Source: a virus. From it: a stretch of 27,829 bases of DNA. The DNA lies in the IMG/VR virus record IMGVR_UViG_3300024301_000069, positions 1 to 27,829 of that record. One strand, written 5' to 3'. The translations under genes and the position numbers were made by a program. The notes under the pieces were generated by a model. The model was not told the DNA's origin. It searched no databases and saw only the letters and a list, made by a program, of their open reading frames with translations. Shown here in pieces: positions 9,411-27,570 of this stretch (its first letter is position 1; each line of letters starts with the position of its first letter).

Positions 9411-9486
9411 CACGATGGTGTACGCCTGCCCGCACTGGTAAGCCGTCGTTCTCCGTAGCCCCCTTCCGCAAGGTTGGGGGCTTTTT
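9411..9486 (+). ncRNA. Candidate short structured RNA
   Basis: The gap between the convergent arms could be transcribed from the extended -10 promoter to the terminator as an RNA of about 76 nt. Its 5' part can fold: ACGATGG (9412-9418) pairs with CCGTCGT (9443-9449) with one G-T wobble, and the terminator hairpin forms the 3' end. No open frame of useful size lies inside. It is not a tRNA: there is no T-loop or acceptor pairing. The entire unit is a prediction from spacing and folding; it could equally be an ordinary terminator region with a chance -10 match. Confidence 0.3.
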
Positions 9487-9490
9487 ATTT
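9457..9490 (+). terminator. Rho-independent terminator between convergent arms
   Basis: AGCCCCC (9457-9463) pairs with GGGGGCT (9476-9482). Inside are CC/GG pairs around a GCAA loop, separated from the outer stem by a TT/TT mismatch. The run TTTTTATTT follows at 9482-9490. It serves the + strand arm. On the - strand no T-run follows the hairpin, so termination of the structural arm here is less certain, although its last stop codon (9485-9487) abuts the stem. Confidence 0.8.
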
Positions 9491-12400
9491 GTTGTACTCG
9501 CGTCGGCTCTCCTCGATCTCTTTGCGTACCAATGGGTTTATAGTGACACCGTTGTACATTTCAGAAGAAGTTTTCCTAGCACTTTTGAGAGACCTTTGGA
9601 TAGCTTCGTAATCTAGTCTTGCCCCGGGATGTTTGCGGTTAAACTCCCGCATGTCTGCCAGCACCGCCTGTTTAGCTTCGAAATCACCAGTCCGTAAGGC
9701 TACGTAGTATCGACGCGTGATGTTAGTACGCTCGTCAAGAATCGCCCGCTCGACACGCTTGTCGCGTTGGTTCTGCTCTTGCTGGAACGCGTAGTCTGCA
9801 GGGGCGAAACCAATTGCTTGCGACATCATCTCCCATGTAGACATATCAGCGTACATCGGATCACCACGTCGGCTATATATGCCACCGTCTTTCTGATAGC
9901 GCCCGAAAGTAGTCTTATACGCGTTAGCTACACCGGCTGGGAGCATTGACTCTACCCCCCGCTGCATATCACCGCTTGTTAAGTCGTCAACACCACGTAA
10001 GAATCGTTTAAAGACACTTAGTGATGGGCCTCCTATGTAATACATAATATCTTCTTCTAGAGAAGCATTATGGTTATATCGGTTCTCTTGAATAAGTAGC
10101 CCACTTAGGCGAACACGGTCAGCGATATTGATGCCGAGTGCTTCTTGGAGTGGGCCTTTAAACCACCCTTCATCTATTTGTTTACGCACAAGTGTATTGA
10201 AGTCATCTTCGTCGTCATCAAGGAATAGGAGGTCTGCCAGCATCTGCACTGCCCCGTAAAGTGGTACACCATATACCCCGGCGAAAAACATTGAAGCCCC
10301 GTGGAAGCCAAGAATCTGCTTGAACGCACGGTTGCGGGTAGCTTTGTCACCTTCGATATGAGCGTCAACCAGCCCCTTAGCTGTTTTCATCATGGTGTAG
10401 TACATCTGCAAGCCGTATGACTTGTACATAAACGCCACGCGTCCAAGCCCTTCTTGTGATACTCTCGGCGCAGTTTCGAGTACAGCCCCACCGTTCGTCT
10501 CTTGTGCGGTGTACAGTGCCTCCTCCGCGGCTTTAGCTTCGCGTTGTGCTTTCGGCATCTTAGGGTTATCTGCGGCTATCTGCTCAAGAGCCAAGTTATA
10601 AGACGCGATAATAGTAGCTTGACGGTTAAATCGTTCTGCTTGGTTAAACGCCATTGCGGAAATAGCTGAGATACGATTCATATTACGCCCTGCAAAGCCC
10701 CCACGCAGTGCACGGCCACCTTCTTCCAAACCCAATGCGTCTAGGAGAAACGACCGGCTCAATAGCCCACGGCTTGCTGCTAACTTAACTACAGGTGCTA
10801 TACGCTCTAACTCTTTCACTGTATCTGTATCTAAATCAAGATCAGTGCGTACGTTATAGTCCCCATTAGGAGTAACGTCGTAGTAGCTGTCAACACCGTA
10901 AGCAAGCGTCACCCTATCCAGTGCTTTACCTACCATGCTAGAGGATTCGGCACCGATTTTAGAGCCGGTAACCAGCTTCATAGCTTTAAAGATTTCTGCT
11001 GAAGTATTCTCGTAGCCGTATTTGCCCCCAAGCATAGGTAGCACGAATAGTGGTACTTGTGAAAGGTTAACAAGTGCAGACGCGACGTTGAAGCCGATTG
11101 TGTATATGAACGCTAGCTGGTTCGCGCCTTTATACGCCCGCTCTAGCTGCTTATTCTTAGCGCCAGACATAGCAAACTTAGCGCGGATTAGAAGCTCTTT
11201 TTTGACCATATCAGCTGGGATTTCACCCACTGCGCGCCCTGCCATAGTTTTAGGTCCGCCAGTATCAGCGGGCTCCGCTTCAAAAATCTCATCTGCAAGT
11301 TGTTGTATTTTGGCACTATATTCTAAACGTGCTGTTTGGCGTCCAAGGTCGTAGCCTTTTGTTTTCATAGCGTGGAGTGCATCTTGAATGTACCCGGGAG
11401 TCCCTTTCCTACGCTGTAGTGACTTAGCAAAAGAAGTTTCAGGTAGAGCTTCGACAAACAAACGTAATATCTGCGCTTGAACGTCCTCTGCTACACCGTT
11501 AGCTTTTAATGTTTGCAAGGTCTGCCCTACGAATGAAGTAGGCGGCGCAGCTTGGAACTGCTCGAGCCCGTAGTCTCCATCGTGAGTTTTGATAGAAGAT
11601 ACAACTACATTGGGGTCTTCTTTAAGTTCATCCATAGCACGCTTACGAGCTGCGTAGGTATCGAACATCTCTACAACGTAGGCGTCTTCTGCACGGTCGA
11701 CCGAGCTGTCTTTTAGGGAATACTCGAGCTTGTACGAACCTTCACGGATTAACGGGAAGTACACGGACAGCGTGCTAGTATCAAACAACTTCGCATACAC
11801 TTCTCGTTTCAGTTTCTTCGCAACTTCGGGGTCGCTAATCGCATTGTCTATACGCCCGTAAATAACGTCGCGTAGCCGTTCGTACTGCGTTTTGTACATG
11901 CCTTGCATCAACTTATAAGCACGCTGCCCATCAGCCCCTAGCGCGTCCCAATCGGCGCGCTGAGCTTTCCAGATATCAAACAGCTTGCGGCCAGATACTT
12001 CAGTATCGCCGTACGTTTTACGTGCTTGCGCCTGAGATAGCGTTGGGTCTACTTGCCAGATAGTAGCACCGTACTCACGGCTGTAGATTAGGTTATTCAG
12101 CTTAGCATTAAGCTCCGCCCCCGCGGTTTTAGTCCACCGCTCTACCGCACGAACGTGCTTTTGCACCCACTCATCTGCCTCATACATTTTCCCGCGCTGT
12201 TCTTCCACCAACCTATGTAAGCGCAGCCCAAGGTCTTTTAGGCCAACTTTTTTCGCTACATCACCAAGCGCCTGCGAGCCAAGTAGTTTTAGGTATACAA
12301 GTTTAGTGTTATTACCTACACCGGCACGCAAGAACTCCTCACTAGAGTCTGCAAAGTCTTGGCGGAACTTCTCGGTGAGCTTTCCTACACCTTTTTGAGT

Positions 12401-15400
12401 GTTATCTACCTCTTTAATCTCCTGCTCCACACCACGCCGTGTAGAAGCCATTGGCAAGTCCGTCGAATCACGGTACTTAGGTGCAGGGCTGATAATTGCT
12501 TCAATCATAGAGTCTGCCGCAGTAAGTGCGGAATCGATAGACTTCGGCTGCATACCAATTAGTTTACGTACGAAGTTCCCAACAGAGTTAACAAAACGTT
12601 GGAATGCACTAATCTCTTTGCCATCTGGATACATACCAGCCAATTTCTGCTGGAACTCCGGATTACTCATCGCTTCAGAAACAAACTCATCCACGTTAGT
12701 CGCACCGTACGCTGAATCAAGCATAGGTGTAACGTCTTCAAGCAGCTTAGTTAACTGTTTGGTAAGGGGATGGTTCTTGTTTGCTAGTGTCGCGCTAACC
12801 GCCGCGTGCGTAACTTCGTGCAGAAGAACATGAGGGTTCATGCCTGTTTCTGCGTCCAACTTGATAGTGTTGGTTTTAGGGTCAAATAAACCACCGACGG
12901 GATTACCCCGAGAATCTTTCAGGTTTTGCACGATCTCGATCTGTGTACGCTCCTGCTCAACACCAGCTGACTCTACAACCTTTGCTAGTTTACGAGCTGT
13001 ATTCGCAACGCGCTGATTCTGAGTAGTTACAGAGAGTGCACGTAGTGCGGCGCTTAGGTTACCTTGGGTTAGCAGCCCACGTACTACCGGGTGCATGGGG
13101 GCACTCAAAGCCAGCACCGAATCTTGAGGCATCAGCAATTCGTTAATGAACTCTATATCCCCGTCCACCATAGCCTTCTCAAGAGCTTTTGCAGCGGCCT
13201 TGTCAGTTTTACGCCGTTCTGCAACGTTATCGGTCAAGGTATATAGATTCTGTGCGTACGCAGCGTGTGCTTCATCCGCAATCTGCGTGTTTAGCCACTT
13301 AATAGTCTGCTCAGACATATTGGCTTCAACCCACTCCCGGGCTAGGTTCGCGTTTTTACCGCCAGTACCCCTAAAGAAGTCTGCTTCAATATCAGTCTCG
13401 CCTTCTGCACGGCGGTAGTCTTTAGGCTGAAACGCAATATCATGCGCAAGCATAGCTAGCACGTCAGCGGGACGCGGTAGTTTTTGGAAATATATCTTAG
13501 CCGCGGAAGCAGATTTATCATTTCTGACATCTGTAGTTAGTAGCTCTAATACCGCTGTCTTATCTCCCGCCGTGCTGGGGTCCGTTTTTTCAAACTTAAA
13601 GGCTTCAGCAAAGGCACGTACGGTAGGTTTAGCGCGTTGCTCCCATAAGTCTTTAATCTTAGTAGCAATTTTAGCATCGCGCCCCAAGGCTTCTTTTGTC
13701 CGGCCCGTTTCAACTCTAGGGCCTACCGGCTTAGCTTCTGTTGTTTCTTTAGTGGGTTTACGCGTAGCTTTCGGTTTAGCAGCAGGTTTAGCTTTTTTGG
13801 TCGGTTTTTTAGCTTGAGGGGCCTCTACAGGCGCTGCTTCTTGCTCAGGCGTAGCACCGGTGCGTGCTTCAATACGTTGTCTCTCTGCATCTATTTCTTG
13901 CTGCAGTGTAGCTTCGTCCGTTACGCGTGTTTCAAGCGGACGTTCGATAGCCCTAGCTGCACCGGGCGCAATATCTAGTGTAAGCTGGTCTGGGCTTTCT
14001 CCTCCAATAGGTCTTCCAACGCCGCGCTCAGCTGCTGCCAATCCTCGTCCTCTAGGTGCTGCAGCTGGTTCGGCACCGATTCCACTGAGAGGTGGTACAG
14101 CTCCGACGCCCACAGGTCGTTCAATACTTGAAACGCTAGCTCTATCTGCTGGCGGCTCAGCTGCTGTTTCCCCTGCACCTCGGCGTCCTCGTCCTGACGG
14201 TTGGAATAGTTCAAGCTGTTCATCCGGTGTACCCTCCAATTTACGAGCCACATTAAGCCGAGTCTGCTGTGAAATTTTCGGGTTATTAGCAAACTTAACA
14301 AACTGTTCCCTTACATCTGGATCGTTTAAATCTTTGTTCTCTGTACGCTTGCGTATAGGTGCAGCGGGGGAGATACCTAAATCGTCTAAAAACTCTTTAG
14401 TAACAATAGTTGGTTCTGGAGCTTGTTCTGGTAACGTCTCAGGACGTGTATCACGTCGTTTACCCATGCCGGGGAACGCCATCTGAGAAGGCTCTGCGGG
14501 GGCAGCGGCTTGGCGTTCTGGTATGCGTGCCTCCAGCTCCGCAATCTGGGTGTCTTCGGGAGTCGTCTCTACTTGATCGATAACTTCTTGAGGAGCTACA
14601 TCGGTATCTGCAGGTCGCAGCCCAGCATACGCATCAGTAGCACGGCGTATACGCTCTCGCTCAGTCTTTGTAGGCCGAGCATTGCGGGCACTAGCGACAT
14701 TTTGCCGCTGCAATTCTTTAGAAAAGCGCTTTTCTACGTTTGTACGACTGCCAGTAGATAGCTCAGCGAGCACACTGTCTAACACTTCACTACGGCGTGC
14801 TGTCTTTTCATCTTGTACAATCCTAGCTTCCGACGGGGTACTTTCGGCTTCAGAAGCACGCTTAACACGTTCTAGCTCTGCTATTGCTTCCTCGTCAGCC
14901 CCCATCAATTCTTGTAGCTCGGCGTCCTCGGCCATGGCCTGTTCTTGTTGGACCATCTCTGCGAGCTGCGCATCTTCTGCTTGCGCAATCATATCGGGAG
15001 TGCCAGTCTCTTGCTCCCGCAGTGTGAGGTATTCCTCCGTCGTCATCGGGCGCTGTGCATCTTCAGAAGTTAACAGGTCAAAAACCATCTCTTCTGTTAT
15101 CGAGGCAGGCTCTACACCTTGCTCAGTTAGTATATCGACAGCAGCGTTTATCTCGTCTCCAGTAAAGTCAGTTAGCGCGCTGCCATAGTCAGGGCCTTGC
15201 TCAACAGTTGTAGGTGTAGCGCGACCGGGGAATAACTCACCTTGACCTTCAAATCCGCGCTGATCGCCTAATTTAGGCTCCTCAATTTCCTCCGGGGTAA
15301 CCTCGCCCAGTTCAACCCTATCGGTAGTTTCGGTTCCTCTTACACGGCCTTTGGTAAACGTATCAACAACGGCTTGGAGGATTCCACCTGCACCGCCGCC

Positions 15401-16231
15401 AGCAATGGCCTCGTCAATCAGGCCAGCATCAAGGAGTTCGCGCTCTGCGTTGTAGCCACGCTCGTTAAGGTTCTGTAGAAACCCCGCTGCGGCTTCCTGC
15501 GCTGCTTCAACGCCACCAGTCGTAAGCGCACTACGGATACGGCTACCGCCCGCTTCAACGGCTTTACCGCCAATCTTTTCAGCGAACTTAGATACCCCCG
15601 GAATACGGAGGATTCGGCCTAGTGGTAAGATTTCAAGTGAGCCGATTCCAGCGCCGCGAGCGGTAGCTATATTACGCTCTTCTTCGGTAGCGCCGGCGGC
15701 ACGGGCCCGTTCACTTGCTTCACCAGCACCGGCCCCTATACCTATAAAACCTGCTCCGATAGTACCAATAGCGGTAGCAGCGGCGGCAGGGGCGGCGTAA
15801 GCAGCGATAACAGCAGGGGTCAATGCCCCAGCAACAGAACCAAGTCCTGACGAAACAAGATACGATAGAGAGTCTTGGTCGCCCCCTTCAGGACGAATTG
15901 CGTCTGCGACGCTCATTATCTTTTGCCGTGCGGCAAGCTCGTCCTCTTCTTCAAGCAGTGTAGCGGCACCCAGTGCAGCCATCTCACCGGTACCGACATA
16001 ACCTGCACCGAAACCAGAAGCTACGTTCTCGAAAAATCCGGGGTCTTCGTCTCCGCGGCTTAGCAAGTCACCATACGTAGCATTTTGCTGCTGTAGGAAT
16101 GCGGCTAAATCCCCCTCTTGCTGGGGGAGGCGTCTTTGTTGGATAGCTATTGCTAACTTCCGTGCTGCATCCACATCCCCCGCTGCATGGGCATTTTTGA
16201 GCGCGGCGCCCAACTCGTCTAGTGTTGCCAT
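9485..16231 (-). CDS. Giant internal virion (ejection) protein with metallopeptidase motif
   Basis: 2248 aa, the size class of phage internal or ejection proteins and polyvalent proteins that enter the cell with the genome. The start is helical (LGAALKNAHAAGDVDAARKL). Gly/Ala-rich hydrophobic stretches follow at about 65-200, with a VEAAQEAAAGF segment near 245 and another Gly-rich stretch after it. Residues 300-900 are acidic, Pro/Lys-rich and probably disordered. A zinc metallopeptidase signature HEVTH lies at 1138-1142, with E1182/E1186 as possible third ligand, resembling the MPTase-PolyVal family. The C-terminal third has an AERFNRQATIIASYNLA motif near 1860-1880, like large polyvalent protein-associated domains, and a hydrophobic helix near 1978-2002. 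It probably forms part of the DNA-ejection channel; the peptidase may cut host or virion proteins. It is last in the structural arm, 10 bp after the 557-aa gene. Confidence 0.8.
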   Translation of the reverse strand: MATLDELGAALKNAHAAGDVDAARKLAIAIQQRRLPQQEGDLAAFLQQQNATYGDLLSRGDEDPGFFENVASGFGAGYVGTGEMAALGAATLLEEEDELAARQKIMSVADAIRPEGGDQDSLSYLVSSGLGSVAGALTPAVIAAYAAPAAAATAIGTIGAGFIGIGAGAGEASERARAAGATEEERNIATARGAGIGSLEILPLGRILRIPGVSKFAEKIGGKAVEAGGSRIRSALTTGGVEAAQEAAAGFLQNLNERGYNAERELLDAGLIDEAIAGGGAGGILQAVVDTFTKGRVRGTETTDRVELGEVTPEEIEEPKLGDQRGFEGQGELFPGRATPTTVEQGPDYGSALTDFTGDEINAAVDILTEQGVEPASITEEMVFDLLTSEDAQRPMTTEEYLTLREQETGTPDMIAQAEDAQLAEMVQQEQAMAEDAELQELMGADEEAIAELERVKRASEAESTPSEARIVQDEKTARRSEVLDSVLAELSTGSRTNVEKRFSKELQRQNVASARNARPTKTERERIRRATDAYAGLRPADTDVAPQEVIDQVETTPEDTQIAELEARIPERQAAAPAEPSQMAFPGMGKRRDTRPETLPEQAPEPTIVTKEFLDDLGISPAAPIRKRTENKDLNDPDVREQFVKFANNPKISQQTRLNVARKLEGTPDEQLELFQPSGRGRRGAGETAAEPPADRASVSSIERPVGVGAVPPLSGIGAEPAAAPRGRGLAAAERGVGRPIGGESPDQLTLDIAPGAARAIERPLETRVTDEATLQQEIDAERQRIEARTGATPEQEAAPVEAPQAKKPTKKAKPAAKPKATRKPTKETTEAKPVGPRVETGRTKEALGRDAKIATKIKDLWEQRAKPTVRAFAEAFKFEKTDPSTAGDKTAVLELLTTDVRNDKSASAAKIYFQKLPRPADVLAMLAHDIAFQPKDYRRAEGETDIEADFFRGTGGKNANLAREWVEANMSEQTIKWLNTQIADEAHAAYAQNLYTLTDNVAERRKTDKAAAKALEKAMVDGDIEFINELLMPQDSVLALSAPMHPVVRGLLTQGNLSAALRALSVTTQNQRVANTARKLAKVVESAGVEQERTQIEIVQNLKDSRGNPVGGLFDPKTNTIKLDAETGMNPHVLLHEVTHAAVSATLANKNHPLTKQLTKLLEDVTPMLDSAYGATNVDEFVSEAMSNPEFQQKLAGMYPDGKEISAFQRFVNSVGNFVRKLIGMQPKSIDSALTAADSMIEAIISPAPKYRDSTDLPMASTRRGVEQEIKEVDNTQKGVGKLTEKFRQDFADSSEEFLRAGVGNNTKLVYLKLLGSQALGDVAKKVGLKDLGLRLHRLVEEQRGKMYEADEWVQKHVRAVERWTKTAGAELNAKLNNLIYSREYGATIWQVDPTLSQAQARKTYGDTEVSGRKLFDIWKAQRADWDALGADGQRAYKLMQGMYKTQYERLRDVIYGRIDNAISDPEVAKKLKREVYAKLFDTSTLSVYFPLIREGSYKLEYSLKDSSVDRAEDAYVVEMFDTYAARKRAMDELKEDPNVVVSSIKTHDGDYGLEQFQAAPPTSFVGQTLQTLKANGVAEDVQAQILRLFVEALPETSFAKSLQRRKGTPGYIQDALHAMKTKGYDLGRQTARLEYSAKIQQLADEIFEAEPADTGGPKTMAGRAVGEIPADMVKKELLIRAKFAMSGAKNKQLERAYKGANQLAFIYTIGFNVASALVNLSQVPLFVLPMLGGKYGYENTSAEIFKAMKLVTGSKIGAESSSMVGKALDRVTLAYGVDSYYDVTPNGDYNVRTDLDLDTDTVKELERIAPVVKLAASRGLLSRSFLLDALGLEEGGRALRGGFAGRNMNRISAISAMAFNQAERFNRQATIIASYNLALEQIAADNPKMPKAQREAKAAEEALYTAQETNGGAVLETAPRVSQEGLGRVAFMYKSYGLQMYYTMMKTAKGLVDAHIEGDKATRNRAFKQILGFHGASMFFAGVYGVPLYGAVQMLADLLFLDDDEDDFNTLVRKQIDEGWFKGPLQEALGINIADRVRLSGLLIQENRYNHNASLEEDIMYYIGGPSLSVFKRFLRGVDDLTSGDMQRGVESMLPAGVANAYKTTFGRYQKDGGIYSRRGDPMYADMSTWEMMSQAIGFAPADYAFQQEQNQRDKRVERAILDERTNITRRYYVALRTGDFEAKQAVLADMREFNRKHPGARLDYEAIQRSLKSARKTSSEMYNGVTINPLVRKEIEESRREYNK

Positions 16232-17917: not shown

Positions 17918-18754
17918 TTACTCTCCACTGCCTGTGTTGTTAGGGTTGTCAGGCAAAAACACTTTAGATAGAAGATCGTATATACCACCACTACCTGACA
18001 AAAAGTCACTTAGTGCACTAGGTTGCGCATAAGAGTACGACTGCGCAGCGATAGGCAACCCTTGTAGCAACGATTGCATGTACTGTACTTGTTTGTATGG
18101 GAAGTCACGCTCTTCTTCAAACTGCGCACGGTCAGCACTAAGACCTTCTTGCTCTATTCCACGCTGAAGTGCGCCAAAATCGGCTTGGCGTTGCAGGGCT
18201 GTAAGCCCGTACACATTCCCCGCTTCTTGTGCGCTACGGGCTCGATCTTGTTCAATATTAAACTGCTGCGCAGCTTTATCGTATGCAGAAGCGTAGCCTT
18301 GCCCAGTAACATTCGCCATCTTATCCAGCATAGCGCGGGTTAGTTCGACGTCAGCTAGTGCTTGTCGAGAACCACCATAAGCACCGGCACGAGTGAGGCG
18401 TCCAGCTTGCTCTACGCGCGACATTTCAGATTGACGGCGTAACTCATCAAGTTGTGGTTGTAACGCCGCATTTAGGTACGGATTCATGTACTGTTGAGCA
18501 GTGCCTTGTCCCGTAAACGATTGTGGCTGGTAAGCCCCCATATTTTGGGGTACAGCTAGCCCGGCTACACCTTGGAACGCTTGCTGCTGGAGGTTTGATG
18601 CGCCTGCAGTGAGTGGTCCGGTGTAGGCTTGATACGGCTCATTGGCTAGAGCTGCACCCTTACCAAGCATAGTTGTTACATAAGGACCGGCCCAGTTAGA
18701 GAGGGAAGACTCCTTACCTGTTACTTCTCCTACAACACTATTATCGTCTGCCAT
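17918..18754 (-). CDS. Conserved phage structural protein, helical
   Basis: 278 aa, rich in Gln, Ala and Gly. The N-terminal 90 residues are loop-rich (YQAYTGPLTAGASNLQQQAF). A helical middle follows, with MNPYLNAALQPQLDELRRQ, then RAGAYGGSRQALADVELTRA, then a long Gln/Glu helix to about residue 210. I recognise the YMNPYLxxALxPQLxEL and AGAxGGSRQA motifs from unnamed virion-region proteins of many marine podo- and siphoviruses, where they sit beside internal-protein genes. The C-terminus is short and loop-rich. It has no signal peptide, membrane helix or catalytic motif. The 8-bp gap upstream and 2-bp gap downstream show tight coupling. An internal virion or tail-tube-associated role is inferred from position only. 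Confidence 0.65.
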   Translation of the reverse strand: MADDNSVVGEVTGKESSLSNWAGPYVTTMLGKGAALANEPYQAYTGPLTAGASNLQQQAFQGVAGLAVPQNMGAYQPQSFTGQGTAQQYMNPYLNAALQPQLDELRRQSEMSRVEQAGRLTRAGAYGGSRQALADVELTRAMLDKMANVTGQGYASAYDKAAQQFNIEQDRARSAQEAGNVYGLTALQRQADFGALQRGIEQEGLSADRAQFEEERDFPYKQVQYMQSLLQGLPIAAQSYSYAQPSALSDFLSGSGGIYDLLSKVFLPDNPNNTGSGE

Positions 18755-18762
18755 GTCCTACC

Positions 18763-19569
18763 TCACGCTGGTAACATTTTGTTGGGCTTTATTTCTTTGC
18801 CCTGTTTTTCATTGCCTGTACGTTCTTTACGTACGCGGGCCATCATTTGCTTTAAGATTTTTGCACCTGCGGCGGAGTTGCCGTTGCCTAGGTGACTTAC
18901 TACATCAGCGGGGATTACAAACTCACCGTCGCTTAGTGCCGCGGGTTGCCGCCCGTCGATTTCGGCTGGAACTTTATCCGCCATACCGTCTGTTGATCCG
19001 TTGAGGTATTTCCCCTTTTTTAGCCCCATAAGACCACCTGCGGCAGCTTCAACTGTTTCAGGAGGCTGTGGCGGAGGTCTACGCTCCTCCCGTGCAGGGT
19101 TAGCTAGATTATATTCCATAAGGGCACGTGCCTGCTCATCCCCACGTGTACGCGCTGCGGTCTCGCCTGCTGCGCCTTGTACATACTCGACATCGGTAAA
19201 GTAGCGACGTCCGGAGCTACCGGGGCGGCGATTCGGGTCGTACGTATATTCGGGGAGGCGTGGCCGTTGCGCTTCTGCGGCACCTTGTAGACTACCGAGA
19301 CCACTAAACATATCAGCATCAGCTTCAGGGGTTCCCGGTTGTTGCATGGGCACACCACGGCGAATAGCAGTTAGTTGCGGAATACCGCCTTGGTAACCCG
19401 TTGGAGGTATTTGTGGGTCACCTATACCGGAGGCATTACCGAGGTAACTAAGCCCGGCGGACCCAAGTTGCAATATACCTTCAGGGGACATAATATAGTC
19501 TAATCCCTGCTGACCTGCAGTTTTAAGCCCTGCGGTAAAATCGTCTAGTAAGCTGTCAAACCAACTCAT
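18763..19569 (-). CDS. Conserved phage virion-region protein with GEFVIPADVVS motif
   Basis: 268 aa; its ATG overlaps the stop of the 1799-aa gene (ATGA). Residues 1-60 are helical with a mildly hydrophobic stretch. The middle (70-170) is Pro/Arg-rich and probably disordered. The C-terminal third carries a block I recognise from marine phages: AAAGGLMGLKKGKYLNG, then IDGRQPAALSDGEFVIPADV, then LGNGNSAAGAKILKQMMARV. The function of this block is unknown to me. It may mediate assembly with the neighbouring proteins, since the 557- and 1799-aa proteins carry comparable short A-x-GG segments. No enzyme motif is visible. The sequence ends in a Lys-rich tail. Confidence 0.65.
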   Translation of the reverse strand: MSWFDSLLDDFTAGLKTAGQQGLDYIMSPEGILQLGSAGLSYLGNASGIGDPQIPPTGYQGGIPQLTAIRRGVPMQQPGTPEADADMFSGLGSLQGAAEAQRPRLPEYTYDPNRRPGSSGRRYFTDVEYVQGAAGETAARTRGDEQARALMEYNLANPAREERRPPPQPPETVEAAAGGLMGLKKGKYLNGSTDGMADKVPAEIDGRQPAALSDGEFVIPADVVSHLGNGNSAAGAKILKQMMARVRKERTGNEKQGKEIKPNKMLPA

Positions 19570-22500
19570 TTTTTGCCTCCAATAATACGTAACAACTTAT
19601 CAGTTGTGTCCTCTACTTGTCCACCTTTTGCATAAGGGCTTGGGAACATTGCTGCCTGTGAAGGCGTAGCAAATATGCTGCTCCAGTCGTAGATATAGTT
19701 TAATTGTAGCGGATCAGGAGTTTCTACAGTAACTTGTTGCCCCATAGCGTCTGGTGCCATAAGAGCTTGTTGTAAAAAGTCGCGTCCACCTTGCTGTAAA
19801 AATTGCTTCTCCATCTCAATAGAGGTGTCTTGTGCCATCTGCTGAACCATATCCATAGTTTGGTTCTGGTTTTGGTATAGTCCGGTCGGTGCGAATACAG
19901 ACGTGGGCGCTACTTGAGAGGTGGTTACGTCCCCCGCCAATAACTGCTCAAGCATCTGCTGGTCTGCAATATCTACTACGTTATCGCCTGTAACGTCATA
20001 CTGCGTGATCTGCTGCTCGTTAAGCGCTTGATTTTGGGCAATAACGTCGGCAACAAAATCAATATCGGTTTGGGTAACGTCTTGCGCAGGTTTGCCCACA
20101 TACTCTGCAATCTGCTGAAGCTCTTGAGATGTAACATTTGCAGCGGCTACGGGTAGATAATCGCTAATACCCTCTTTGCTAGTAGCTTCAAACTCATCAA
20201 GCGTATAATCCGACGTCGTTGGGTCATACTGTCTAACAAACCGATCTAAATCTTCTTGGGTTACATTCTGGAGTCCGAGGTCTTGATAAGCAGCAAGAAC
20301 TTCATCTGCGCTTAAATACCGAGGGTCTACGTACTCACTGATCGCAAGTTCTTGGGTAGTTTGATAGTTAACGTCGTTCAGCTGACCTACAAACTTCTGT
20401 ACTTCTTCATCAGTAGGGTTGTACCCAATATCGGTTAAGTACGCCCGTGCTTCAGTTTCTGTTACTTGCCGCGGGTTTACGTACTCACCGATTGCGGTTA
20501 TTTGCTCTTCTTCAGTTTTAGAAGCAACAAAGTCAGCAATTTCTTCCGGTGTAGCGGTATACCCGGATTCTTCAAAGAATTGTGCGGCTTCATCCTGCGT
20601 TGTTGCTAGCGGATCGTATTCGGCACGGGCAGCTTCAAGTTGAGTTTCTTGGTACGCCTCATCACCCTGCCCAACGTAAGTTTGTGCGAGGGCTTCGGTA
20701 AAGGTTAGTCCTTCTTCGTCCGCAATAGCTGCTATTTCGTCCAACGTTACTTGCCGTGGATCGACGTACTTTGAAATAACCTCAGATTGAGTAGTTTCCT
20801 CTACCTGTGCAACAAACTGCTGGACTTCTTCGTCAGTTGGTGTGTACCCAAGATCAGAGAAAAAGCCTCTCGCATCTTCCTCTGTTACTTGCAGCGGATC
20901 AACGTACTGTTCTAAACGTAGGGGAGCATTTGCTTCGTAATTAGCCCCACCTTGCCCTACAAAGTTACTTATTTCCTGTTCACTTGGAGTGTAGTCAAGC
21001 CCTGCAAACAGCCCTGCAACCTCGTCCGCTGTAATCTGCCGTGGGTCTACATACGCCTCAAGGTTGGTAAGTATGTCGGCTTCGTTACCTTCTTGGACGA
21101 ATTGACCAACTTCATTATTGACCGGGTTGTACTCTAGTAAAGCAAAAGCCTCTTGTATTTCCGCATCGGTAGTGCCTAGAGGGTCGTATACCTCTGCTAC
21201 TGTGCCTAACGTTTCGGTCTCGTCTTGCCACCCGATGTATTGCTGGGCATCCTCCGCAGTAATTGTTACCCCCTGCGCTGCGGCTGCATCTATAACTTCT
21301 TGGGTATCAACGTGTTTTTGGTCTATGCTGGTGTTAACAGCATCTTGTAGTGCAGTGCCGCCTTGAGTGCCGACAAAACTGTCTATATCAGCACTGGTGG
21401 GGGTATACCCACCTTCTTCCTCGGTAGCCCACACACCAGAGGCGTTTTCATACGCATCAATTACCGCTCCGGTACTAGCGTATGTTTCTGGGTCAATCTG
21501 ACTAAACACGTTACCTACAACAACAGGGTCAGTAATACCTATAGTGTCGAGAGCTCTAGTTGCAGCGGCAATGTCACCTTTTTCTATGGCAGAGTTAATA
21601 TCGGGAGAGAGCAACGAAACTGCATTTGCATACGCATCTTTTGTTTGGGATAAACCGTAGGCACCCCCAGATACACTTGAACCGACAATGAAGCCCATAA
21701 ACGCCGATGCGGTAACTTCTCCAGCGATATCTATACTTGGGTCTAATTGCTTCAGGTGGCTAGCCGTGAACGCTTGAGTTAGTCCCTCCTCAATGGATTC
21801 GGTAACCCCTTCTTTTAATGTGATAACGCCGCCGTTAGCAATACGTCGAGTAAGTTCAGTAACACCGTCTGCTAAAAAGCCAGATACATTATCTTTGTTT
21901 AAGATAGCTTTCTCTAAGGCTAGTCCGCCAACACCAAACGATGCAGCGGTAAGGGTAGCTGCGACAGCACCGGATTGAACAGCTAACTCCAGTGCATAGT
22001 TTTGTGCGTCCGCTTCGGACATTCCGCTGTCAATCGCTATAGAATACGCGCGGTCGTATGTATCAGCTGCTGTACCCCCAAAACTTTCGGTGAGATCAGT
22101 CGCTGCAGCGGCACCAAGCCCCGTCCTCGCTGCAATACGGGTAGATAAAGTTTTACCGGCAGCATACGCAGCGCCTTTAACACCTAGGGTAGCTACCCCA
22201 CCTACCGCTAGCGGTACAAGCTCCTGCATAGCCTCTACACCAACGTATTCGGCTAAGAACGTAGTTGGATGTTCTGTAATACCCCCAGCGAGTGCGCTCA
22301 TTTTATCTATGGCTTTGTCGTACCATGGGAGCGCATCGTATTCGGACTGTGTGATTTCAGTCGCTTCTTCCTCTGATAGCCCAGTAGCCATGAGTGCTTC
22401 TTTACGTAGGTCTTTAAACCCTGAAGAACTCATCTGTTCTTCAAGTTCTTTTAGGTTCTCTTTGTATTCTTCGGTATTGCTATTCTCACCAAGTTTGACG

Positions 22501-24965
22501 AGCTTTTTAGCAAACTGCCCCACAGCTGTGTCAGAAGGAGCTACGCCGAATAGGGCAGAAACACCGTTAAACGCCTTGAGAATTCCTCCCGTCGCCTTCA
22601 AAACATTAGCTATCGTATCCTGTGCGTTGTCGTAATCATTCTCGTCTGCCCAATTAAGAAGAGACGAAACAGTATCAATGGTTTGATCTGTGAACCCCAT
22701 TGCATCAGCAGCTTCCTTGGCTACGTCACTGTCGGCACCGCGGGTAATAACGATAGTAGTGAGCAGTTCAGCGTTATCCGCCGTGCTAACGCCATCATAA
22801 GTGTTTGTTATGAACCCAATACTTTCACCGTCGTCGTTTACCAGTATAGTGCGGACTTCTCTACCAATAGCGTCGTATGTGGTGGTTTTATTTACTCGCC
22901 CGTGGTTAGGGTCCCAATATTGCTCAGAGGTTTCTAGCGGTCGGAAGACTCGGTTACCGTTCACATCTATATCGATAGCTATCGGATTGTAGATAACATC
23001 TTCGTAAGTGACACCGTCCGCGAGCTTGGCAGTATTAACACCTTCCTGTGCGTCAGCTATTAGCGCGACTTTTTGCTGGTTAGTGAGCGCATCGCCATTT
23101 GTCATGTCAGCGGTATCAAAACCAAGCCGCTCTAGCGAAGTTCGTGTGGCATCATCTAGGGTGTCTTTGCTAAGCGCGGGATCAGCATTCTGCAGTATGG
23201 CTTGTTCCAACGTACGCACGTAGGAGCTAGTAGTATTCGGGTCGTCAAGAATTTCACGTAAGGAGCTTATTGGTAAGTCTGCTAACTCTTTATGGATCGC
23301 ATGAAAACTCTTTGGATCGATGTCCGCTGAGTCCAGCCCAGCAGCTTGGACAACAGCAACGAGGGCGTCTAGTTTTACTGACTTTTGCGCGGCTTCATAT
23401 TGCTCTTGGCTTTGGAACACTGTCGGATTGCCAGTATTGCCTAGGAAGTGCTCGTATACATTAACGTCGTCTCCGAGATCGTTAATGTTGCGATAGGATT
23501 CTTCCGCGAAGAGTGGGTTTAGTGTCAGAGTAAAGGCTTTGGCAGTCTCTTCATACAGCGGGTTAAGTGATTCGTCGAGGCGCTCAGTCGACACTTGCAT
23601 ACGGGCCCGTCTGGCATCTAACTCTTTATAGAGGCCAGTAAACTCTGCGTCTGGGTTTTCTTCAGTAGGGCCGGTACCAATCTGTTTACTTAGGTCGTTA
23701 ACCTCCTCAAGCAGGGTCTCCATTTGAGGGTTATAATCTTTGTATAACGCATTAAACTTTTTAACGTCCTTGTTCAATTTGTTGATAGCAGCTTTGTAAG
23801 CGGGGCTATCTAATGTAAGGTCAGAGTTCTTAACTCGGTTCACTTGCTCTGTATATAGATCACGCTCCGTGATGGGATTAGCCGTAATTCTTTGGTTAAG
23901 GCTTTTAGCCCCCTCCAACCGCTCACTTTCAGCAATGATAGCGTCATACTTGTCCTTTAATTCCACACGCATGGCTTCGTACTGCTCGGATTTTGACGCG
24001 CGCGTAGTTGCTAATTCATCTATTTTATTCGCGGATTCCTCCAACCGCTGGTAATCTCCACTGATTTTATCGAGGGTGTTACCTATGAGATCACCGACTT
24101 TGGAGTCATCGATCGCTTTGTTTAACGCCTGAGTACCGTACGCAGACATGACGTTCTTAAGTACGGCAGCTGCTTGCTCCCCCGATCCACCTGACAGTGC
24201 GATAGCTGACACCCGCTGTATAGCAGCGGTGGTGTATGCAAGGGCAGTAGGGTCATTAATAGCTATACCGCCAGATGCGGCCATTTTTTGTACGAGGTCG
24301 GTAGTGAGAAGCCCACGGGTTACGGCGTTAGCTATCACGCTTGCGTCAACTTCGCTCCCAGATAACTGTGCAGAGATTGCAGAGCCGACAATATTTTCTA
24401 CTACAGCAGGTATTGGAGTAGTCTTGCCAGTATTAGGATTGGTAAAGTTCCAACCAAGTTTCTGTTTAATCTGTCCAAGGGCGGCAGATGTTGCCCCGCT
24501 TACACCTCCGGTAAAGAAGGCTTCCACCGGGTCAGTTCCGTAGATCACCGCATAGGTAGCGCTAGTTGCTCCTTTAGTAACCGCATCGGTAACTATTTCG
24601 TTGGCTACTGCATTATTAAATAGGTCAGCATTTCCCATAGCCTCGCCGACATAGTCACTAACTTCACCAGCTATTTTTTGGGATGCGTATGATACTGCGA
24701 CTGTTTTTAGGACATCCCCGATGTCACCACCCTTTACGGCTACACTTGCGCCGTCAACGAGTGGGATAGCCCAAGCGTTCCCAGTAGCATACAGAGCAAT
24801 TTTTGCCGCGGTCCCCAGTGGGTCCTCCGCTAGCCCTTTAAGGGTATCTCCCACAAAATCGACCGCTGGCTTAGCAATTTTGTCAACGGCAAAGTCGACT
24901 ACGTTGCCAACTGCTTTAGCTGCACCACTAATTGCTTTCCCAACTGCTTTAGCTACACCACCCAA
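19566..24965 (-). CDS. Giant virion protein with tandem repeats and an EF-hand-like loop
   Basis: 1799 aa. The start is TTG at 24963-24965 with GGAG 6 bp upstream; TAG at 24975-24977 closes the frame, and no ATG or GTG lies between. The N-terminal 35 residues are an Ala/Gly/Val/Lys amphipathic stretch (VAKAVGKAISGAAKAVGNVV). Charged coiled-coil-like helices occupy about 290-470. Gly/Ala-rich hydrophobic stretches lie near 900-1100 and include EGVTESIEEGLTQAF followed by FIVGSSVSGGAYG. Residues 1218-1600 are tandem repeats, described separately. At 1657-1668 a loop DVTGDNVVDIAD matches dockerin or EF-hand calcium loops. The C-terminus carries AKGGQVEDTTDKLLRIIGG. Size, membrane-type segments and position before the 268-, 278-, 557- and 2248-aa proteins suggest an internal or tail protein that contacts the membrane during ejection. 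No catalytic domain is recognised. Confidence 0.7.
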   Translation of the reverse strand: MGGVAKAVGKAISGAAKAVGNVVDFAVDKIAKPAVDFVGDTLKGLAEDPLGTAAKIALYATGNAWAIPLVDGASVAVKGGDIGDVLKTVAVSYASQKIAGEVSDYVGEAMGNADLFNNAVANEIVTDAVTKGATSATYAVIYGTDPVEAFFTGGVSGATSAALGQIKQKLGWNFTNPNTGKTTPIPAVVENIVGSAISAQLSGSEVDASVIANAVTRGLLTTDLVQKMAASGGIAINDPTALAYTTAAIQRVSAIALSGGSGEQAAAVLKNVMSAYGTQALNKAIDDSKVGDLIGNTLDKISGDYQRLEESANKIDELATTRASKSEQYEAMRVELKDKYDAIIAESERLEGAKSLNQRITANPITERDLYTEQVNRVKNSDLTLDSPAYKAAINKLNKDVKKFNALYKDYNPQMETLLEEVNDLSKQIGTGPTEENPDAEFTGLYKELDARRARMQVSTERLDESLNPLYEETAKAFTLTLNPLFAEESYRNINDLGDDVNVYEHFLGNTGNPTVFQSQEQYEAAQKSVKLDALVAVVQAAGLDSADIDPKSFHAIHKELADLPISSLREILDDPNTTSSYVRTLEQAILQNADPALSKDTLDDATRTSLERLGFDTADMTNGDALTNQQKVALIADAQEGVNTAKLADGVTYEDVIYNPIAIDIDVNGNRVFRPLETSEQYWDPNHGRVNKTTTYDAIGREVRTILVNDDGESIGFITNTYDGVSTADNAELLTTIVITRGADSDVAKEAADAMGFTDQTIDTVSSLLNWADENDYDNAQDTIANVLKATGGILKAFNGVSALFGVAPSDTAVGQFAKKLVKLGENSNTEEYKENLKELEEQMSSSGFKDLRKEALMATGLSEEEATEITQSEYDALPWYDKAIDKMSALAGGITEHPTTFLAEYVGVEAMQELVPLAVGGVATLGVKGAAYAAGKTLSTRIAARTGLGAAAATDLTESFGGTAADTYDRAYSIAIDSGMSEADAQNYALELAVQSGAVAATLTAASFGVGGLALEKAILNKDNVSGFLADGVTELTRRIANGGVITLKEGVTESIEEGLTQAFTASHLKQLDPSIDIAGEVTASAFMGFIVGSSVSGGAYGLSQTKDAYANAVSLLSPDINSAIEKGDIAAATRALDTIGITDPVVVGNVFSQIDPETYASTGAVIDAYENASGVWATEEEGGYTPTSADIDSFVGTQGGTALQDAVNTSIDQKHVDTQEVIDAAAAQGVTITAEDAQQYIGWQDETETLGTVAEVYDPLGTTDAEIQEAFALLEYNPVNNEVGQFVQEGNEADILTNLEAYVDPRQITADEVAGLFAGLDYTPSEQEISNFVGQGGANYEANAPLRLEQYVDPLQVTEEDARGFFSDLGYTPTDEEVQQFVAQVEETTQSEVISKYVDPRQVTLDEIAAIADEEGLTFTEALAQTYVGQGDEAYQETQLEAARAEYDPLATTQDEAAQFFEESGYTATPEEIADFVASKTEEEQITAIGEYVNPRQVTETEARAYLTDIGYNPTDEEVQKFVGQLNDVNYQTTQELAISEYVDPRYLSADEVLAAYQDLGLQNVTQEDLDRFVRQYDPTTSDYTLDEFEATSKEGISDYLPVAAANVTSQELQQIAEYVGKPAQDVTQTDIDFVADVIAQNQALNEQQITQYDVTGDNVVDIADQQMLEQLLAGDVTTSQVAPTSVFAPTGLYQNQNQTMDMVQQMAQDTSIEMEKQFLQQGGRDFLQQALMAPDAMGQQVTVETPDPLQLNYIYDWSSIFATPSQAAMFPSPYAKGGQVEDTTDKLLRIIGGKK
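20166..21191 (-). repeat. Protein repeats of 45-50 aa in alternating A/B order
   Basis: Seven units in the 1799-aa protein begin at residues 1260, 1305, 1354, 1400, 1450, 1495 and 1545, with a degenerate unit at 1218. Spacings are 45, 49, 46, 50, 45 and 50, an alternating pattern giving a superrepeat of about 95 aa. A units open with (V/Y)DPL, except the last, which reads VDPR; B units open with V(D/N)PRQ(V/I)T. Each then runs to a helix, GYxPTxEE and FVxQ. The DNA copies have diverged, so this is not a recent slippage expansion. Confidence 0.85.
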
Positions 24966-25472: not shown

Positions 25473-26579
25473 CTATACCTCCGGGGAAAATACAGCGGCT
25501 GAATAGATGTTACCCATACCAGCAGCTAAGCTAAGGAATGGGCCGTTTACGGCAGGCGCGGGGGCAGACAAAAACACAGGATCATCACTGGTCCTGTTGG
25601 GGATTGCGGGAATAACACCTAGTTTAATGTCGTCTAGCAACAGTCCAGTCTCCAATAGTCCGCTGGCTCCTACAGTATGCCCAATCTGTGGTTTATATGA
25701 TGTTGCTATAAACTCGTTAAGGGATCGTCGTAAAGCCTGTTTTTCCGCAGCATTGTTGACTGGCGTACCAGTACCATGCGTTTTTACTAATCTTACTTTA
25801 TTTTTATGCAGTTTGGCTACATCTAATGCGCCTTCAATAGCGTGACTAAACCCCTCCCCATCAGGGGTTTGCCCCAAAGGGTTACTGTTACGTTCCCCAC
25901 CAGTGTAGGCACCGAGAAATTTAGCCACCGGTTCGGCCATATTAGCGTGCTCTTTTTCGAACACGAAGATAGCTGCGCCTTGACCTACAAAAAACCCTGT
26001 ATTCACGTCATCAAATGCTGATGGACACCCTCCATCTTTTAGTAGTAAGTTAGCGCCCGACTCCCCAAAAAACTCTAACGTGTTGTTATGCACAGAATCT
26101 TCAACAGTAGCTACAATCATCCGATCGTACCCGTACATCCACATCAAGTGCTGCATCTCCATTAGTACTTTGAGACTAGAGGCGCAAGCACTTGCGTCAG
26201 TAGATACGTAGTCTGGCGCATTAAGCATACTAGCTAACTTACCTGCGTATATATTTGTCAAGGTCAAAAAAGGTACTTTAACTTTGTAGTGCAGTGTGGC
26301 GTCAGGGTTCCTGTCGTAGCGGGCGCTTGTCCCCTGCCAACCTTGACTACCTCCGGCAAATAAAAACCCAGTTTTACCCGCTACGGGGGTGTTACGTAGG
26401 TAGTTTACTAATTCTTCGTCTAACAAAGACTCTAGGAGCCGGTGTGGCGGGTAGAACAAACCCGTCTTAAACCGCCTATACGACTCAGGAATCATATGCA
26501 CGTATTGGGGGTAAGGTATGTCGTCGATTAAAGTGGTGGTAGTGGTGCTAGCAGTACGGTATTTCGTAACATAAATCAT
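25473..26579 (-). CDS. Beta-ketoacyl-ACP synthase (FabF/KAS-type), phage-encoded
   Basis: 368-aa thiolase-fold condensing enzyme. In this family an acyl-Cys intermediate is condensed with malonyl-ACP to extend the chain by two carbons. The whole active site is present: Cys132 in STDASACASSL, His268 in KTHGTGTP, Lys296 and His301 in KPQIGHTVGASG, and Glu310 nine residues after His301 as in FabF. A FFVGQGAAIFVFE strand matches the usual GFVxGEGA block. It is about 45 residues shorter than FabF. The C-terminal gate loop is altered: GMGN (354-357) replaces GFGG, so the gatekeeper Phe400 equivalent is Met355. ATG overlaps the ACP stop (ATGA) with AAGGA upstream. No other elongation enzymes are in the window, so host FabD, FabG, FabZ and FabI would be needed for full cycles. 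The family is certain; the product is unknown. Confidence 0.93.
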   Translation of the reverse strand: MIYVTKYRTASTTTTTLIDDIPYPQYVHMIPESYRRFKTGLFYPPHRLLESLLDEELVNYLRNTPVAGKTGFLFAGGSQGWQGTSARYDRNPDATLHYKVKVPFLTLTNIYAGKLASMLNAPDYVSTDASACASSLKVLMEMQHLMWMYGYDRMIVATVEDSVHNNTLEFFGESGANLLLKDGGCPSAFDDVNTGFFVGQGAAIFVFEKEHANMAEPVAKFLGAYTGGERNSNPLGQTPDGEGFSHAIEGALDVAKLHKNKVRLVKTHGTGTPVNNAAEKQALRRSLNEFIATSYKPQIGHTVGASGLLETGLLLDDIKLGVIPAIPNRTSDDPVFLSAPAPAVNGPFLSLAAGMGNIYSAAVFSPEV

Positions 26580-26946: not shown

Positions 26947-27570
26947 CTATAAGTTGCTAACAAATGATACCGCAACGACTGCGGATGGAATACCGGGATG
27001 AGGTGTGGTAGGAGCTTCGGTAGCGAGCGATGCAGTAGTGTCGTCAGTCGCCCAATACATCTCTATGTACTCTCCTGCGGTTAGATCAATAGAAAAGTTC
27101 CAATACACGGGTTGGTTTGCGTTACCTACGACGGTTTGTTGTTGCCCGCCGTAGGTCACATCAGTGCCGTTCTTGTTAATCCAAGTCCATACCTGCACAG
27201 CTGACGAGTTCGTGTGCGCGGTCTGTAATGTCACTTGGAAGTTGTAAACTCCATCAGCCGCCACAGTAATCTGTGTATTATCTGCACCCGCTATACTTAC
27301 CCCGTTGCCGATATACGTATTTTCAAATTCTATCGGATACCCAGTGTTAATAGCTGCCGCGCTCTGGTTTGTGGTGCTGTAAAACAGCCCCCGTGGCATG
27401 TATAGAAACTTGCCACCATCATCGGTGCTTAGAAGCGTGTTGATAGTATTGGTAATTCGGTTGAAGAACAGCCGCAGAACATTACTATTCTGGTCCATAA
27501 ACGGTCGGCTGTACTCTTCAGGTGGCAGAGGTAACGCTGGTGGCTCTGCCCTATCAATATCGTTAGCCAT
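26947..27570 (-). CDS. C1q/TNF-like jelly-roll virion protein, probable fibre or decoration
   Basis: 207 aa; ATG overlaps the stop of the upstream gene by one base. Residues 25-50 form a short helix (NVLRLFFNRITNTINTL), likely a trimerising or anchoring segment. From residue 58 on the sequence is beta-rich: MPRGLFYSTTNQSAAAINT, then GVSIAGADNTQITVAADGVY, NFQVTLQTAH, VWTWINKNGTDV, YWNFSIDLTAGEYIEMYW, and a final SAVVAVSFVSNL strand. This strand order and the AAxGVYNFQ and AGEYIEMYW motifs are typical of C1q/TNF-like jelly-roll domains in marine phage fibre or neck proteins. The likely role is surface binding or adsorption on the virion. No peptidase or lyase signature is seen. Confidence 0.8.
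   Translation of the reverse strand: MANDIDRAEPPALPLPPEEYSRPFMDQNSNVLRLFFNRITNTINTLLSTDDGGKFLYMPRGLFYSTTNQSAAAINTGYPIEFENTYIGNGVSIAGADNTQITVAADGVYNFQVTLQTAHTNSSAVQVWTWINKNGTDVTYGGQQQTVVGNANQPVYWNFSIDLTAGEYIEMYWATDDTTASLATEAPTTPHPGIPSAVVAVSFVSNL

Follow-up and report, generated by a model that had tools for sequence, protein, structure and literature searches.

An array of EF-hand-like units as a possible variable-length helical spacer in a large, putatively ejected protein of podovirus-like phages

The repeat gene

The window, that is, the whole stretch of DNA analysed here, covers 27,829 bases and is a virus record of IMG/VR, from an uncultured podovirus-like phage. Its minus strand carries a gene (19566..24965) for a 1,799-residue repeat protein, P0001, which has a TTG start with GGAG in front and a stop codon that overlaps the ATG of the following gene (18763..19569). 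The tandem array of this protein is preceded by a stretch with three weakly hydrophobic segments (aa 916-1098, 21672..22220, minus strand; Kyte-Doolittle values of 1.38-1.56 over 19 residues). The C-terminal tail (aa 1745-1799, 19569..19733, minus strand) is conserved, with a SIFA.P.Q...F..PY..GGQV-like pattern common to relatives. The array is under purifying selection, with dN/dS values of 0.10 and 0.25 in two pairs; a third pair gives 0.13 with synonymous sites nearly saturated, and a fourth is saturated.

Searches of Pfam and NCBIfam with P0001 gave no match above cut-off, and whole P0001 found no match among PDB sequences. The best PHROGs match (E 0.0094) is to a group of unknown function, and no known ejection-protein family was matched in Pfam, NCBIfam or PHROGs. 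In INPHARED, blastn returned nothing and tblastn found no match with P0001 or P0005, while P0002 gave a single, N-terminal match. At E 0.001 a BFVD search found nothing (best E 1.3), and a pattern scan of bacterial and archaeal genomes returned 200 and 99 matches, none of which was confirmed as a relative.

Gene neighbourhood

Relatives of the repeat protein were collected from IMG/VR scans (loci L002-L047 and L053-L130). Directly after the repeat gene lies a gene for 268 residues (18763..19569, minus strand), whose homologue comes straight after the repeat gene in 34 of the 35 loci that could be tested; in the remaining one, L102, it forms a fusion with the repeat protein. A gene for 278 residues (17918..18754, minus strand) matches phrog_4287, a 'DNA ejection protein', weakly (E 3.2e-5), and has a homologue downstream of the repeat gene in all 35 testable loci. 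The cassette ends with a PLxRFG/tail-700 protein of 2,248 residues (9485..16231, minus strand; NF032893, E 1.7e-95), possibly a large ejected polyvalent protein.

The window ends before the nozzle gene. The position of the cassette after the tail nozzle is given by family match in L016 and by annotation in MW202545. In L016 a 615-residue gene comes first, followed by small genes, a gene resembling a ketoacyl synthase, the repeat gene itself, two genes of middle size, a 757-residue gene and a very large gene. The 615-residue product matches phrog_3287 (virion structural protein, head and packaging), and its closest cultured matches carry annotations as stabilisation proteins or constituent proteins. 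Judged by size only, ORFs in L020 and L022 follow the L016 order, with no ORF of the expected size in the ketoacyl-synthase place of L022. MW202545, a siphovirus according to its record title, encodes, by annotation, a stabilisation protein, a ketoacyl synthase, a 639-residue protein and, where the cassette ends, a transglycosylase. Only the first 150 residues of the 639-residue protein match the repeat-protein family (E 3e-26) and the repeats are absent, so that the family can do without the array. The last protein of the corresponding DSL-LC04 cassette is annotated 'DNA transfer protein' and the positional counterpart of the repeat protein is annotated 'tail tape measure protein'; no homology to the repeat-protein family was detectable in these cassette genes.

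As read from sequence, this gene order fits an ejection-protein cassette of a podovirus-like phage. As with the ejection proteins of T7, P22, SP6 and phiM1, a large protein stands in a cassette behind a nozzle or stabilisation-type gene in the relatives, and podophage ejection cassettes likewise end in a very large protein. The repeat protein differs from podophage ejection proteins in having no sequence match to their families, and we know of no ejection protein of the T7, P22, SP6 or phiM1 type with such repeats. Gene place and size would fit its placement in the group ejected from the capsid. A virion location, suggested in the preliminary description of this DNA, is thus presumed here as well, since the gene lies in a cassette with ejection-type genes.

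The same neighbourhood invites another reading, in which the protein would control tail length or assembly, as tape-measure or scaffold proteins do, and the repeats would set a length inside the virion and not in the envelope. The annotation of the DSL-LC04 counterpart points in this direction, a ruler would suit the variable copy number described below, and the title of the MW202545 record would count in its favour if correct. However, the DSL-LC04 protein has no detectable sequence relation to the family, and a long tail is not expected because the upstream gene of L016 resembles stabilisation proteins of short-tailed phages. This explanation is considered unlikely.

The repeats also occur in a 1,435-residue protein of L037 (L037:5927-10231), a locus on the same contig as L102. 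Because the last 80 residues of this protein match the neighbouring 268-residue gene (66%), the repeat module is also present in another cassette protein, by what appears from the sequence to be fusion or module transfer.

Two genes before the repeat gene, the window encodes a beta-ketoacyl synthase of 368 residues (25473-26579, minus strand; Pfam Ketoacyl-synt_C, E 1.2e-16; FabF-type PDB chain, E 1.5e-18). Among 22 aligned copies, the Cys position that we take to be catalytic is conserved in 21, with one gap, and the two His positions, likewise taken as catalytic, in all 22. The synthase is found in 8 of the 25 loci with more than 2.2 kb upstream (21 of 59 loci overall), and the MW202545 copy is 52% identical to that of the window. 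Elsewhere in the window, a 207-residue protein (26947-27570, minus strand) shows a sub-threshold similarity to the BclA C-terminal domain (E 2e-5) and weak matches to minor-tail PHROGs. In the 2,248-residue protein, LPD39 falls just below the cut-off and the last 390 residues are similar to a DarB-like PHROG.

Nine units in the window protein

An iterated HMM of a 34-residue core locates nine units in P0001, starting at residues 1167, 1213, 1259, 1305, 1354, 1400, 1449, 1495 and 1545, with spacings of 46-46-46-49-46-49-46-50. All are encoded on the minus strand, and the type names attached to them (A, B, C, C', A2, B2, C2 and D) belong to this analysis and were assigned by eye. Seven tandem units had been reported in the preliminary description at coordinates that agree with units 3-9. 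Upstream of these lie two degenerate units with a spacing of 46, unit 1 (aa 1167-1212, 21330..21467) and unit 2 (aa 1213-1258, 21192..21329; type A). The reported seven begin with unit 3 (aa 1259-1304, 21054..21191; type B, 46 residues) and unit 4 (aa 1305-1353, 20907..21053; type C, 49 residues). They continue with unit 5 (aa 1354-1399, 20769..20906; type C', 46 residues), unit 6 (aa 1400-1448, 20622..20768; type A2, 49 residues) and unit 7 (aa 1449-1494, 20484..20621; type B2, 46 residues). Unit 8 (aa 1495-1544, 20334..20483; type C2, 50 residues) precedes the terminal unit 9 (aa 1545-1594, 20184..20333; type D), the end of which was placed by eye.

The regularity of the tandem repeat is confirmed by the unit HMM and by an ungapped self-comparison of residues 1150-1660, in which the top diagonal, at offset 95, scores 297 over 190 residues versus a maximum of 51 in shuffled controls (n=40). 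The spacings of 45 and 50 residues first given for the array result from mixed registers. A single register gives 46-49-46-49-46-50, so that the alternation of short and long units stands and the exact values do not. The alternation itself holds for the last seven units and is absent from the first part of the nine-unit array (46-46-46). Nor are the opening motifs strictly split by length, as had been proposed, since the 46-residue unit at 1354 opens with YVDPLQVT, near the YVNPRQVT of the 50-residue unit at 1495. These two units (5 and 8), one short and one long and three apart in the array, form the best pair, with 59% identity.

It had also been suggested that an ancestral short-long pair of 95 residues was duplicated to give a two-faced rod, and the offset-95 diagonal appears to favour such an event. 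This diagonal is strong because all neighbouring length pairs in units 3-8 sum to 95 or 96, and alone it is no proof of greater likeness between alternate units. Mean BLOSUM62 scores in units 3-9 are 57.0, 60.0, 62.0 and 68.0 at lags 1, 2, 3 and 4. The excess of alternate units (60.0) over neighbours (57.0), which the preliminary description had itself named as the decisive comparison, is matched by 41% of all 5,040 orders (permutation p 0.41), which argues against pair duplication in the window.

Copy number and duplication among relatives

Two sets of relatives were compared. The first comprises 183 units from 27 proteins, the near-identical L003, L014, L022, L030 and L038 being left out. 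The larger one comprises 104 arrays with at least four units, of which 60 were kept after removal of any array with more than 30% of its 12-mers in common with a longer one; arrays of fewer than four units are outside this 60-array set. A comparison of repeat number in related phages, proposed earlier as a check, reveals copy numbers that vary from 2 to 18 units. Two units each are found in L026 and L039, and also in L004, which is cut by the contig end. Complete proteins of the larger set, from which arrays of fewer than four units are excluded, have 4 to 18 units with a median of 7.5.

Similarity between units was measured as a function of their distance in 28 contiguous runs of at least seven units. 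Mean scores at lags 1-6 are 63.1, 64.4, 63.8, 71.7, 54.6 and 57.0, with permuted means of 58.8-61.0. The value at lag 4 (71.7 vs 59.7, sd 1.6, in random order) lies 7 standard deviations above chance, while the excess at lags 1-3 is about 3 to 4. When lags 1-4 are compared within each run, the highest score falls at lag 4 in 15 runs, at lag 1 in six, at lag 2 in four and at lag 3 in three. We conclude that the larger block of descent consists of four units (~190 residues) and not of two. Duplication of a two-unit block could still draw on the strict alternation over six spacings in 10 of 31 non-redundant arrays with at least six spacings, the window included, and on lag-2 scores above random order (64.4 vs 59.1). 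But lag 2 is level with lags 1 and 3 and under lag 4, and the L085 array, where the 46/50 alternation is perfect over the last eight spacings, itself peaks at lag 4, where the similarity among its last nine units is 142, as against 59 and 69 at lags 1 and 2. Pair duplication as the origin of the array is accordingly judged very improbable.

The alternation is nevertheless real as a pattern of lengths. Of the 37 arrays (window included) that are intact at the 3' end and have no fewer than four spacings, 14 end short-long-short-long, and alternating successive pairs number 158 of 296 over all 60 arrays, close to half. Spacings of 46 (151 cases) and 49-50 (152) predominate over 47 (35) and 48 (19), from which we infer two length classes set apart by roughly one turn of the connecting helix. 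The length class can switch within an apparent orthologue, as in unit 6 of the window, which has 49 residues vs 46 in its L018 counterpart.

Recurring unit types were read by eye from a tree of the 183 units from 27 proteins, of which only the leaf order was used, without support values. Type A is the first unit of short arrays, type B comprises EYDPLATT units, type C is YVDPRQVT with 49 residues and C' its 46-residue variant; A2, B2 and C2 are later versions, and D is terminal. Read in this way, the window array is u1-A-B-C-C'-A2-B2-C2-D. L010, L013, L024, L033 and L034 have just four units, again read by eye as A-B-C-D, as does L015 as far as its contig runs. L012 and L020 share 96% identity. 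Each is read as a first unit followed by blocks of four units, three in number, and among their best unit pairs four are at lag 4, with 53-70% identity. Single units also duplicate, since L028 contains three tandem units that are 93-98% identical.

Predicted fold and resemblance to EF-hand pairs

An AlphaFold model of two units (units 7-8), built on an alignment of 119 rows in register (alignment A4, window pairs overlapping the query dropped), reaches a pLDDT of 94.4 and a pTM of 0.81. It consists of a bridge, a helix at 9-18, a helix at 25-29, a second bridge and a helix at 37-51, after which the order is repeated, so that each unit has three short helices. The regular tandem repeat is thus helical by prediction. 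A model of the long array (units 2-9 and the stretch after) has a pLDDT of 66.1 and a pTM of 0.24, too poor for a global shape.

Sequence searches with the two-unit profile point to EF-hand proteins. Against PDB sequences the profile finds calmodulin (E 9.2e-6), and the best 60 of 276 matches are all calmodulin, centrin or troponin C. A 22-row profile gives E 2e-5, and its reversed control yields three matches, the best at E 0.56, none of them to a named EF-hand protein. The aligned stretches span the F helix, the linker and the E helix, and end where the next calcium loop begins or slightly within it. The match extends to both lobes of calmodulin and centrin, in one register. The units resemble the calmodulin, centrin or troponin C pair in having an F-helix, a short linker with a G..PT-like turn and an E-helix in a single register, and the predicted strand-helix-helix-strand-helix order fits that of an EF-hand pair. 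They differ from such a pair in lacking a calcium loop, in having a third helix that continues into the next unit, with up to 18 copies in a row, and in their period (46-50 residues, vs 73 between the two matching calmodulin stretches).

Homology of the fold would account for this shared register and for the reversed-sequence control, yet the resemblance may also be convergent, the array then being a generic helix-turn-helix spacer with the capping motifs TxxE and GYTPT. Single EF-hand stretches are weak (i-Evalue 0.08-5.1 for the six main ones among the matches listed), and the whole-profile E-value is low because two weak lobes add up. Foldseek ranks troponin C and calmodulins first among PDB structures, without significance (best E 0.17, TM ~0.3). 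VIA-align gives Z scores of at most 3.6, likewise not significant; spastin ranks at the top and EF-hand proteins score near 3. Spastin and the other VIA rows were set aside as sharing a common helical arrangement. Pfam has no EF-hand match in the arrays of P0001, P0002, P0005, L008, L020 and L022, the EF-hand_7 match of L008 (E 0.059) being located after the array. When the units were compared, profile to profile (hhalign), with the calcium-loop module found in their own proteins, no relation was detected.

Ligand residues also argue for convergence. The near-invariant residues of the units are one D and two E, and across 183 units a twelve-residue calcium-ligand loop is not a feature of each unit. 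Even a loose pattern occurs in just two, at the same out-of-place stretch of the near-identical L012 and L020. At L020:6875-13636, inside the array, Sigma70_r3 (32.0 bits, cut-off 25.3) and DUF2789 (30.2 bits, cut-off 27) exceed their cut-offs as whole-protein scores, with no single stretch above cut-off. These two are probably chance similarities of short helix pairs, and they weaken the sequence case for EF-hands because they sum up in the same way. The units are therefore named EF-hand-like and not EF-hands, as the results above speak against an EF-hand origin. Convergence is held to be quite possible, with a probability somewhat short of even; it concerns the fold and not the function, and can be combined with a spacer role.

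A dockerin-like loop after the array

Separate from the units, a dockerin-like calcium loop, DVTGDNVVDIAD, lies at aa 1657-1668 (19962..19997, minus strand). Its positions 1, 3, 5, 9 and 12, presumably the calcium-ligand sites of a dockerin or single EF-hand loop, are occupied in the window by D, T, D, D and D. A profile of 12 loop stretches has dockerin type 1 as its top match in the PDB (E 0.0015). Of 42 complete non-redundant proteins, counted with the window and without genes cut by a contig end, 35 have the five-position pattern after the array; it is absent from L013, L099, L102, L109, L110, L116 and L124. Dockerin_1 scores 14.9 bits in P0002, 13.4 in the L012 tail and 13.3 in L020, all under the cut-off of 22.9, and was not reported for P0001 at E 0.1. 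The loop resembles that of dockerin type I in its D-V-T-G-D-x-x-x-D-I-x-D pattern; it differs in being one loop instead of two and in not reaching the Pfam cut-off. The loop would presumably bind calcium.

Such a loop also suits an adhesive or host-binding stalk on the virion surface, the folding of which would be stabilised by calcium as in secreted repeat proteins. The acidic composition of the array (92 D+E vs 14 K+R in 428 residues), the variation in copy number and a weak VIA-align likeness to the N-terminal domain of the S-layer protein RsaA (Z 3.3) would all be in keeping with a stalk. Against it, the repeat gene sits among genes with ejection-type annotation and family scans found no receptor-binding domain, which leaves the stalk improbable. 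The RsaA row had also pointed to a DUF4214 or S-layer pattern as a lead for the array; PF13946 was not found in the window at E 1.

Proposed role

Taken together, the favoured interpretation, to which we give a little less than an even chance, is that the array serves as a helical spacer of variable length within one of the large ejected (pilot) proteins that a podovirus-like phage would carry, and is built from units that resemble EF-hand pairs. Each unit of 46-50 residues would adopt the strand-helix-helix-strand-helix fold of an EF-hand pair without its calcium ligands, and its third helix would run directly into the following unit to form a continuous helical chain. The two main unit lengths, 3-4 residues apart, would differ by about one helical turn, and the chain would grow or shrink through duplications that involve sometimes one unit and sometimes a block of four. 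The protein would be packaged in the capsid and ejected through the nozzle, after which the array may span the cell envelope or act as a tether in it, with a spacer length set by the number of units. The dockerin-like loop, with calcium, may aid folding after ejection.

Ejection proteins of other phages offer precedents for parts of this scheme. According to the phiM1 ejectosome paper (PMC11440229), ejection proteins are packed in the capsid, must pass a nozzle of ~30 angstrom and form a channel that crosses the periplasm. A review (PMC8954989) describes the T7 protein gp16 as mostly helical and capable of refolding once it has partly unfolded. Among the open-licence PMC papers listed, judged by title and opening of the abstract, none deals with an ejection protein or other virion protein that carries solenoid repeats, EF-hands or a dockerin.

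A more elaborate version pictures an extensible rod of tandem calcium-free calmodulin-like lobes with shared helices, capped by the calcium loop, which would fold the chain past the nozzle in calcium-rich surroundings. Unit number would then be tuned, by four or by one, to the host envelope or to virion geometry. This fuller scheme is speculative and rather unlikely as a whole. How ejected proteins of short-tailed phages cross the envelope is a structural question, which a natural series of 2-18 copies of one unit would make directly testable. A chain of EF-hand-like units without calcium ligands would be an unusual viral use of a familiar fold.

Other repeats are found in some relatives. In L005 (L005:3361-6711), just two EF-hand-like units are followed by a second tandem repeat (QLTGLEGTVGGLGD-like) and then by the conserved C-terminus, and in L017 a VVDEVVDQPxDD repeat lies close to the C-terminus; different repeats may act as interchangeable spacers.
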